Origin: Clostridia bacterium | Lineage (GTDB): Bacteria; Bacillota; Clostridia; Lachnospirales; Anaerotignaceae | Reading direction: 5' to 3' | Length of the DNA stretch: 64,000 nucleotides | NCBI GenBank assembly: GCA_022651385.1 | Contig: JALCQR010000010.1 | Coordinates: 62,001-126,000 of the forward strand | Part shown: one piece after another, positions 20,104 through 54,025 of the stretch | Numbering within the stretch: the first letter of the stretch is position 1 | Layout: each line of letters starts with the position of its first letter | The notes under the pieces: model-generated | The model's input: only the letters and a program-made list of their open reading frames with translations | What the model was told of the DNA's origin: nothing | Database searches by the model: none | Program-made: the position numbers and the translations under genes

Positions 20104-20345
20104 ACAAAAAAGAGCCTTCGTCTGAAAGGACGAAAGCTCGTGGTACCACCTTAATTTCTTCGTAAAAACTGCACGAAGACACTCTTTAAGTTATAACGTA
20201 ACCGACGTCTGTACCTACTTTTAATTTTCAGTACAGAAACTCATAAGCTACCTTCATAACCGCATATCCTAAAAGACCTCTCAGCTTATCAAGTCTTTCT
20301 CTCTTTAGGCTGCCTGAAATTACTCCTCTTAATCACTGTCTTTGC
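20104..20345 (-). ncRNA. T-box leader upstream of hisS-ilvE
   Basis: Canonical parts on the minus strand: AGTGA and AGAGAG stem I elements (20335-20290 region), the T-box AAGGTGGTACCACG (20152-20139), and a terminator GAGCTTTCGTC/GACGAAGGCTC (20139-20112) followed by T6. The T-box reads UGGU, which pairs with a tRNA ending in A-CCA. No CAC or CAU triplet occurs anywhere in the leader. By alignment to the standard specifier-loop layout (GAAG, triplet, then stem and UGAG) the best candidate specifier is GUA (Val), with GGU (Gly) as the alternative register; this assignment is tentative. Confidence 0.9.
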
Positions 20346-20365: not shown

Positions 20366-20394
20366 ATTTTATATACATTATCTCTTTTTGTCAA
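20366..20394 (-). promoter_or_regulatory. Promoter of the hisS T-box transcript
   Basis: Minus strand TTGACA (20394-20389), 17-bp spacer, TAAAAT (20371-20366). The -35 lies in the loop of a TATCTCTT...AAGAGATA inverted repeat just past hemZ. Confidence 0.8.
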
Positions 20395-20413: not shown

Positions 20414-21865
20414 TTAAAAATTTTCGCCGTCAAGCAAAACACGTTTTCTCTCAATCATCTCTTTATACCTTGAAAGATAGTCCTCAACGCTTTTTACATT
20501 AAATGAACGTTTAAGCTCGTTTGTCTTTGGAATATAAAGTTTTGTGGTAGCTCCGCAGCCTGCCGATATTATTGACTGTTTTTCTTCCATTATCTCTATG
20601 TTATAAATACATTCTTTTCCTTCTTTGCAGTAGCCAACGTTTTCAAAATTTCCAATCATTGCTTTTTGTCTGTACATATAATACGGCTTAAGGCCCATTT
20701 TTGCAGCATAATCGGCGGAAATATCAATCATTTTCTCCATGTTTCCTACTGATGTAAAGTCATATTTGTCCATGTTTTCTTTAAGCCTTGAGGCACGTTT
20801 TACGGCAAGTGTATGTACCGTCAGACTATCCGGAGCAAGCTTCTTTATTTCAATCATTGTGTTTTCTACATCTTTTTCATTCTCATCTGGAAGCCCCAAA
20901 ATAATATCCATGTTTATATTGTCAAACCCGGCATTTCTTGCCATGAAAAACGCGTCTTTTATGTCTTGTACACTGTGGCGCCTTCCTATAATATCAAGAG
21001 TTTTTTGATTCATTGTCTGAGGGTTTATTGAAATCCTTGTAACACCGTTTTTTTTCATGTCACTAAGTTTCTTTTCCGTTATGGTGTCAGGCCTTCCGGC
21101 TTCTACGGTAAATTCTATATTACGCACATCAAAATTATTGCTTATTACATTCATAAGTTTTTCAAACTGGTTTTCGTTAAGGGATGTAGGTGTACCGCCT
21201 CCCACATAAACAGACACAATATTTTTGTTTCTTGTCCTTTCCGATATAAAACGTATTTCCTCCGAAAGTTTATCCAAGTATTCGTCGGCCTTTTTTGCAT
21301 ATCTGTCTATTGGATAAGACGTAAAAGAGCAGTATAGGCATCTGGTAGGACAAAACGGTATTCCGATATATATACTTATGTCGTCTCTTTTATTTTTGTC
21401 AAGCAAAAATTTTTCCGATACGGCAATGTTATATGCAAGCTCTGCTTTTCTTTTGCTTGCAAGATATTTGTCTGTAAAAAACGATATTATATCTTTTTTG
21501 TCTTTGCCCTTTTCAATAAGCTCGCTTGCATTTTTTGCAGGGCGCACCCCTGTAAGCATACCCCATTTTGGCATATATCCCGTAATAGAACTTAATACGT
21601 CGAAAACCGGCTTTTTTATAAGTCTTTTTTTCTCTTTTTCACTTTCAAAACTATTAAAATGCTCCGTTTTTTCTTTTATAAGTTTACCGTCTTTATAAAA
21701 TGCGGCATAGCTTATGCCGTCGCCGAAAACACTTTTCACAGTTATGCCTTCATCTGAGATTTCTTTTGCCGGATAATAATGTACATTCGGGAAAAAAATC
21801 TGTATTGCCGTCTGTACTTCATGTTCCAATTTGTGCCCTTCGCAAACAAATTTTATCATGTTCAT
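20414..21865 (-). CDS. hemZ: Oxygen-independent coproporphyrinogen-type dehydrogenase HemZ, radical SAM (483 aa)
   Basis: HemN/HemZ family. The N-terminal ~150 residues include WGMLTGVRPAKNA, typical of HemZ. The radical SAM cluster motif is CPTRCLYCSF (C-x3-C-x2-C), followed by VYVGGGTPTSL, ISINPQTMNQKTLDIIGRRH and GLPDENEKDVENTM. Family role is anaerobic haem synthesis, though in haem-free Clostridia the substrate is uncertain. The ATG at 21865 overlaps the MBL stop by one base, but AAAGGG is better spaced for the ATG at 21859. Confidence 0.92.
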   Translation of the reverse strand: MNMIKFVCEGHKLEHEVQTAIQIFFPNVHYYPAKEISDEGITVKSVFGDGISYAAFYKDGKLIKEKTEHFNSFESEKEKKRLIKKPVFDVLSSITGYMPKWGMLTGVRPAKNASELIEKGKDKKDIISFFTDKYLASKRKAELAYNIAVSEKFLLDKNKRDDISIYIGIPFCPTRCLYCSFTSYPIDRYAKKADEYLDKLSEEIRFISERTRNKNIVSVYVGGGTPTSLNENQFEKLMNVISNNFDVRNIEFTVEAGRPDTITEKKLSDMKKNGVTRISINPQTMNQKTLDIIGRRHSVQDIKDAFFMARNAGFDNINMDIILGLPDENEKDVENTMIEIKKLAPDSLTVHTLAVKRASRLKENMDKYDFTSVGNMEKMIDISADYAAKMGLKPYYMYRQKAMIGNFENVGYCKEGKECIYNIEIMEEKQSIISAGCGATTKLYIPKTNELKRSFNVKSVEDYLSRYKEMIERKRVLLDGENF

Positions 21866-53725: not shown

Positions 53726-54025
53726 AAAAAAGACCCGCCCCTGACAATTAATATTGTCAAGGACGAGCCTATAATCTCGCGGTGCCACCTTGATTCACGG
53801 CCATTACGCCGTGCACTTAGCAGGATACCAACATATCCCCGGCAACTGACGTATGCCCACACGTTACAGAATACTAAGCAAAAACATGCCTTTCACTGCA
53901 CCCTCAGCGGTCCATTTGATGAATTGTTTTCTGCCCGATTCTCAGCAACGCGGGCTCTCTGTAAGAGCATTAACACCGTTATCTCCGCTTCAACGGTTTA
54001 ACTTAAAATACTTAATTAAATTATG
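53726..54025 (-). ncRNA. Tryptophan T-box leader of the trp operon
   Basis: Minus strand: AGAGAG in stem I, specifier AAA-UGG-A followed by CCGC that pairs with GCGG on the 5' side (UGG at 53914-53912), T-box AAGGTGGCACCGCG (53791-53778) and a long terminator stem (53769-53732) followed by T6. The T-box UGGC predicts a discriminator G, as in bacterial tRNA-Trp, so specifier and acceptor evidence agree. Confidence 0.95.

Follow-up and report, generated by a model that had tools for sequence, protein, structure and literature searches.

A T-box leader with a valine specifier codon ahead of hisS and ilvE, apparently copied from a valS leader

The window, by which we mean the whole 64,000-nucleotide stretch of DNA analysed, carries on its minus strand hemZ, a T-box leader, hisS and ilvE, in that order (Table 1). 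The genome gave a single match to hisS (at E<=1e-80) and a single match to the ilvE sequence (at E<=1e-20), with no second branched-chain transaminase match, and ilvE begins 88 nt after hisS. The upstream neighbour, hemZ, was found ahead of hisS in 28 of 30 loci, this one included. An Rfam scan of the window aligned the leader over the full RF00230 model (positions 1-219; E 6e-28, gathering score 93), and a whole-genome T-box search recovered it again. Stem I with its specifier loop (AGUA / GAA), the AG bulge and the distal loop were all present in this alignment, and hisS is preceded by an antiterminator that carries UGGN and by a terminator that competes with it. The first-pass annotation, made from the sequence alone, had placed a UGGU T-box and a terminator ahead of hisS with ilvE next in line, and the covariance-model search that it proposed bore this out. 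The terminator region (20165-20110) folded with z = -3.49; Stem I folded alone by energy gave an uninformative z of +1.15. Between the terminator and the hisS start lies GGAGG, and only ~23 nt separate the T-run from that start, too few for hisS to have its own promoter, so that HisRS synthesis would require readthrough or leak. The promoter-like site ahead of the leader matched the consensus at 11 of 12 positions and scored highest among 10 sites in the region covered, where 9.2 were expected by chance.

Table 1. Positions of genes and leader elements in the window
Feature	Position	Strand	Basis
hemZ, upstream neighbour of the leader	20414..21865	minus	TIGR03994, 576.3 bits
Promoter-like site TTGACA-17-TAAAAT, between hemZ and the T-box	20366..20394	minus	consensus scan
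T-box leader, Stem I to antiterminator	20123..20345	minus	RF00230, 127.6 bits
Lower Stem I helix, 5' strand UAAG with CUUA	20328..20331 with 20247-20244	minus	31 aligned leaders
Specifier loop, 3' strand, GAAGGUAG	20248..20255	minus	Stem I; specifier GUA (Val) at 20251-20249
T-box bulge UGGU, putative partner of the tRNA-Val ACCA end (A73)	20145..20148	minus	RF00230 alignment, tRNA ends
Intrinsic terminator, 11-pair hairpin (20139-20112) and TTTTTT	20106..20139	minus	terminator scan, fold
hisS, histidine--tRNA ligase, 421 aa	18817..20082	minus	TIGR00442, 505.2 bits (cutoff 286.75)
ilvE, branched-chain amino acid aminotransferase, 356 aa	17658..18728	minus	NF009897, 477.2 bits, and TIGR01123, 402.8 bits, both above cutoff

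The loop of the hisS leader reads GAA-G-GUA-G followed by CUUA, a register that it has in common with the genome's own valS leader (GAA-U-GUA-G, then UCCG). Altogether 17 T-boxes were found in the genome, their genes being named by eye from translations. Eight-base loops took the form GAA-N-codon-R in the leaders of ileS (AUC), valS (GUA), glyS (GGA), cysE (UGC), asnS (AAC), thrS (ACU), tyrS (UAC, with AAA replacing GAA) and an aminotransferase gene (GCA), and in each of these the codon suits the gene downstream. Seven-base loops took the form GAA-codon-R in leuS, leuA and a further Leu T-box (all CUC) and in a Trp transporter leader (UGG), and the trpE leader has UGG after AAA. Three leaders were exceptions: the pheS loop is longer, the serC Stem I is short, and the alaS leader has GCA directly after GAA (GAA-GCA-AA), one place earlier than the other eight-base loops. 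Applied to the hisS leader, the alaS-type placement would give GGU. The frame preferred by the T-box database, given in passages of PMC7778990 as bases 2-4 counted from the 3' end of the loop, also yields GUA, in the register used by the leaders of recognised genes.

The helices below the loop covary among 31 family hisS and valS leaders, with UAAG/CUUA here and CAAG/CUUG, CAGG/CCUG and CGGA/UCCG in relatives, and these compensatory pairs fix the specifier register. Two-sided changes occurred in all six pairs of the two helices, including four of four in the lower one. In the true register 98.3% of 180 cells were paired, against at most 58.3% when the strands were slid by 1-3 columns; a shuffle control for the register overstates its strength because the 31 leaders are related. 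No His codon was placed in the specifier loop by this alignment, and Stem I (20345-20240, 106 nt) contains neither CAC nor CAU. The first-pass annotation had reported these triplets missing throughout; that holds for Stem I and fails for the whole leader, which has one CAC at 20142-20140, in the antiterminator/terminator part and outside the specifier loop. Taken alone the absence is weak evidence, since 24% of shuffled Stem I sequences also lacked both triplets. Nor does the loop, GAAGGUAG, hold a GAC specifier with an overlapping CAC. The predicted Val specificity, which the earlier annotation had already preferred, rests instead on the fixed loop register and compensatory pairs, on conservation and on the matching valS leaders.

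Other T-boxes met in the genome deserve mention. The window holds a second one ahead of trpE (53756-54002, minus strand; codon UGG, bulge UGGC), which the gathering scan did not list because its 91.2 bits fall just under the Rfam cutoff. The leader of the Trp ABC transporter combines a UGG codon with a UGGU bulge; passages of PMC7778990 report U with G73 of tRNA-Trp, a G:U wobble, in 46% of Trp T-boxes. At the end of contig C15 lies a Leu T-box (L006) closely similar to the leuA leader, with an amidohydrolase-like frame, recognised by eye, ~470 nt downstream and the contig end nearby.

The UGGU bulge fits A73 of tRNA-Val(UAC), of which the genome has three copies, with A73 read by eye from the sequence. 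It is mismatched with U73 of tRNA-Gly, and the genome's own glyS leader carries UGGA. No tRNA-His was detected in this assembly (the loci of 30 of 41 tRNA matches were read, and a pattern found none); tRNA-Ile and tRNA-Lys(UUU) were also absent among the tRNAs read, and all three probably fall in assembly gaps. The tRNA-His of five relatives has C73, so the initial argument, which set the A73 predicted by UGGU against C73 in tRNA-His, holds for the tRNAs compared. However, the argument counts for less against His than it appears to, because the authors of the T-box database, in the relevant passages of PMC7778990, skip discriminator matching for His T-boxes.

We compared the same locus in relatives and found, by protein search alone, 29 family hisS loci (our own and those of 28 relatives; G007, G015 and G024, among 31 relatives with a hisS match, yielded no locus). 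A T-box was present in 11 of these, and all 11 carry a Val codon (9 GUA, 2 GUC). In the remaining 18, hemZ runs close up to hisS and no T-box motif was found. A specifier-region pattern that demanded GTA or GTC matched 27 places in 18 of 58 family genomes, 14 of them ahead of hisS and 12 ahead of valS; the last, L167 on contig C14 of G004, had no T-box motif after it and was rejected as a chance match. The Val leader thus precedes hisS in 14 genomes of six genera (12 GUA, 2 GUC), three of which came from the pattern and, because the pattern itself demanded the codon, add number rather than independent proof. The base preceding the codon varies between G, U and A among these orthologous leaders. 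In ten relatives the hisS leader matched the RF00230 model along its whole length and above the gathering score, in a run that covered our own locus and L049-L064, that is, 17 of the 30 hisS loci with sequence. Loci L065-L077 and 80 further named hisS loci were scanned by motif only, a scan that missed the T-box of L053 detected by Rfam. L082 and G080 gave identical rows, probably from a single genome, and the named Val loci probably repeat family genomes already counted.

Both GUC genomes belong to one genus, g10 (G022 and G031), in which the hisS leaders (L058, L062 and L085, the last probably repeating G022) read GUC and the valS leaders read GUA. In G022, where 45 of 47 tRNA matches were read, we found tRNA-Val with anticodons UAC (three) and CAC (one) and none with GAC, the other two matches being weak and without an ARAGORN call; in G031 a pattern found tRNA-Val(UAC) only. 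No tRNA-Ile was read in G022 either, which indicates that this assembly has gaps. Either wobble is tolerated in g10, or the assembly lacks the tRNA, or the switch is weaker there.

In a tree of 55 leaders, the hisS-Val and valS leaders formed one clade (support 98/94) that stood apart from the hisS-aspS leaders and from the genome's other leaders, and the clade remained at 86/81 when the specifier columns were removed. The rows comprised 12 hisS-Val leaders (11 family genomes and L082; G079 and G081 were not used), 13 of 14 valS loci (a contig end truncates L196), 17 of the 24 remaining hisS loci with a T-box (L109, L118, L130, L135, L140, L148 and L151 were dropped as less regular) and 13 of 15 other own leaders (the serC leader, L013, was left out for its short Stem I, and L006 for its contig end and closeness to leuA). 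The hisS-Val rows nest inside valS, and one valS row (G004) falls among them. They formed a single group in 2% of 200 bootstrap trees with the codon kept and in 24% with it removed, and such a group was not rejected (p 0.456). Forcing them together with the hisS-Asp leaders cost 38.31 log units at a borderline p-AU of 0.0465, and kinship with the hisS-aspS leaders was not recovered in the tree. The first-pass annotation had raised the possibility that the leader was swapped in by recombination; its grouping with valS leaders of the same family rather than with hisS-aspS leaders, moderately supported with the codon removed, suggests that it was indeed brought in.

The valS copy looks older, because four genomes (G005, G008, G021 and G030) carry a Val leader ahead of valS but lack one ahead of hisS. 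On a HisS protein tree built by a quick method, the Val leader needs one change and the placing of ilvE beside hisS needs two. The branch that sets the Val-leader group apart has 12% support, rising to 93% when G005, which lacks the leader and lies next to the group, is included. Genera g9 and g6 have hisS-ilvE without a leader, suggesting that ilvE arrived before the leader; leader loss in these genera is a possible alternative, and the backbone of the HisS tree is poorly supported. Together, these patterns suggest that a valS leader was probably duplicated into the gap between hemZ and hisS when ilvE already lay behind hisS.

The second gene offers a clue to what the switch serves. Of the 80 named hisS loci, 31 had a T-box motif upstream and 49 did not. 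All eight with the Val leader have ilvE downstream, with aspS further on in five. The other 23 all have aspS downstream (~450-550 nt away in three of them) and no ilvE in the locus, and their leaders read by eye as GAC in 19 (16 as GACAC), GAU in one and AAC in two, with L109 ambiguous. The two AAC leaders, L103 and L135, thus appear to specify Asn, which would presumably fit an AspRS that also charges tRNA-Asn. Two further named loci, L084 and L086, have hisS-ilvE and no T-box motif. Because the second gene fits the codon in both kinds of operon (ilvE with Val, aspS with Asp), the switch seems to serve ilvE, with HisRS as a co-controlled passenger. The minus-strand interval from hisS to ilvE showed no terminator-like site. 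The 88-nt gap could hold a separate ilvE promoter; a site at 18920-18892 matched 9 of 12 positions, a chance-level score. A T-box of ilvE's own was also considered and rejected, as no motif occurred in the 600 nt ahead of ilvE in 11 of 12 loci; the twelfth, L241, is cut inside the gene, so that its upstream side was not properly covered. Elsewhere the genome has ilvC with adjoining ilvD-, ilvB- and ilvN-like frames, recognised by eye, and no T-box motif was found in the 3.4 kb covered at that locus.

Several other explanations were weighed against a copied Val leader. The specifier of an ancestral hisS-aspS Asp leader could have mutated in place, from GAC to GUC or GUA, as the operon gained ilvE. 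Most outgroup hisS-aspS leaders do have GAC at the same place, one base away from GUC, and aspS still follows ilvE in five of the eight named Val loci. However, the Val-type leaders keep their grouping with valS whether or not the specifier is masked, joining them to the Asp leaders carries the borderline penalty given above, and the 18 other family loci, with hemZ close to hisS, contain no T-box motif; we regard mutation in place as quite improbable. The leader might also be a decaying, non-functional remnant of a duplicated valS leader, as the g10 leaders with GUC and no GAC tRNA found could suggest, but in ten relatives the leader aligns to the complete model above the gathering cutoff, and compensatory pairs are preserved, making decay very unlikely.

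A different amino acid can be given almost no weight. Reading Gly (GGU) one place earlier would follow the example of the alaS leader, but the variable base before GUA would turn the codon into Gly, Cys or Ser in orthologues, and U73 of tRNA-Gly does not match UGGU. Sensing of histidine without a His codon is suggested by the position of hisS as first gene, and discriminator matching is an unsafe test for His T-boxes according to passages of PMC7778990; yet Stem I lacks both His codons and all 14 genomes that have the leader keep a Val codon, so that this too is hardly credible. A last alternative accepts the Val reading and differs on its purpose: valine supply would cap the charging of tRNA-His, with HisRS no mere passenger but usefully wired to valine as a brake across amino acids, and with g10 having drifted to GUC. 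We consider this unlikely. If it were true, the sole detected HisRS gene would be transcribed only as uncharged tRNA-Val or leak allows, and the GUC switch of g10 would read tRNA-Val without a Watson-Crick third pair.

We therefore return to the reading that we hold with good confidence, namely that the leader is a terminating T-box, probably copied from valS, that would read uncharged tRNA-Val(UAC) and switch on hisS-ilvE in valine shortage. Leader anatomy, register, conservation, the valS grouping and gene order are read directly from the sequence, and from them we infer tRNA binding, switching, co-transcription and purpose; the suggestion of the first-pass annotation that the leader senses tRNA-Val and controls hisS-ilvE fits this evidence. 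The GUA of Stem I would be recognised by uncharged tRNA-Val(UAC), whose ACCA end would bind UGGU; the antiterminator would then be stabilised and transcription would run on into hisS-ilvE. With charged tRNA the terminator would remain. The arrangement would have arisen when a valS leader was duplicated and one copy came to lie between hemZ and hisS, in a lineage with ilvE already behind hisS. Its purpose would be ilvE, the last step of valine synthesis, and since HisRS would be made along with IlvE, it would answer to valine as well.

In the literature searched, which excluded most subscription papers, we recognised no earlier report of a Val T-box ahead of hisS. A T-box, a Val codon and a hisS leader fitting the second gene are all known, and it is their combination that is new. 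The closest relative is the family's valS leader (Val, GUA), which has the same codon, loop register and UGGU and groups with the hisS leader in the tree, but precedes valS rather than hisS-ilvE. The hisS-aspS leader with its GACAC specifier, described in passages of PMC5313534 citing Gutierrez-Preciado 2009, likewise stands ahead of hisS with a codon (GAC, Asp) that suits the second gene, and parts of PMC4342826 treat this operon and suggest that two tRNAs are read. Unlike the leader here, it reads Asp with an overlapping CAC, is followed by aspS and falls in a separate tree group. In the hisS leaders examined, the second gene, ilvE or aspS, thus fits the codon better than hisS does. In Bacillus cereus, the lysK T-box answers both tRNA-Lys and tRNA-Asn (passages of PMC2916919), also a case of a synthetase gene answering a non-cognate tRNA; there, however, a cognate Lys element cross-reacts, whereas Stem I of the hisS leader has no cognate codon.

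Parts of Wels 2008 (PMC2494555) describe, as mode iii, the duplication of T-boxes and their insertion ahead of transporters, often from a synthetase gene, and state that T-boxes ahead of tRNA-ligase genes matched the ligase in all cases. The hisS leader looks like an insertion of this type ahead of a non-matching synthetase; in the duplications of Wels 2008 the target gene fits the amino acid, and hisS does not. It departs both from that rule and from the match between downstream gene and codon that serves as a criterion in the T-box database, and prediction programs that take the downstream gene into account could assign it wrongly. The locus thus offers a traceable natural rewiring, in which the leader of one synthetase gene was apparently copied to the gene of another and its Val codon has been kept in six genera.
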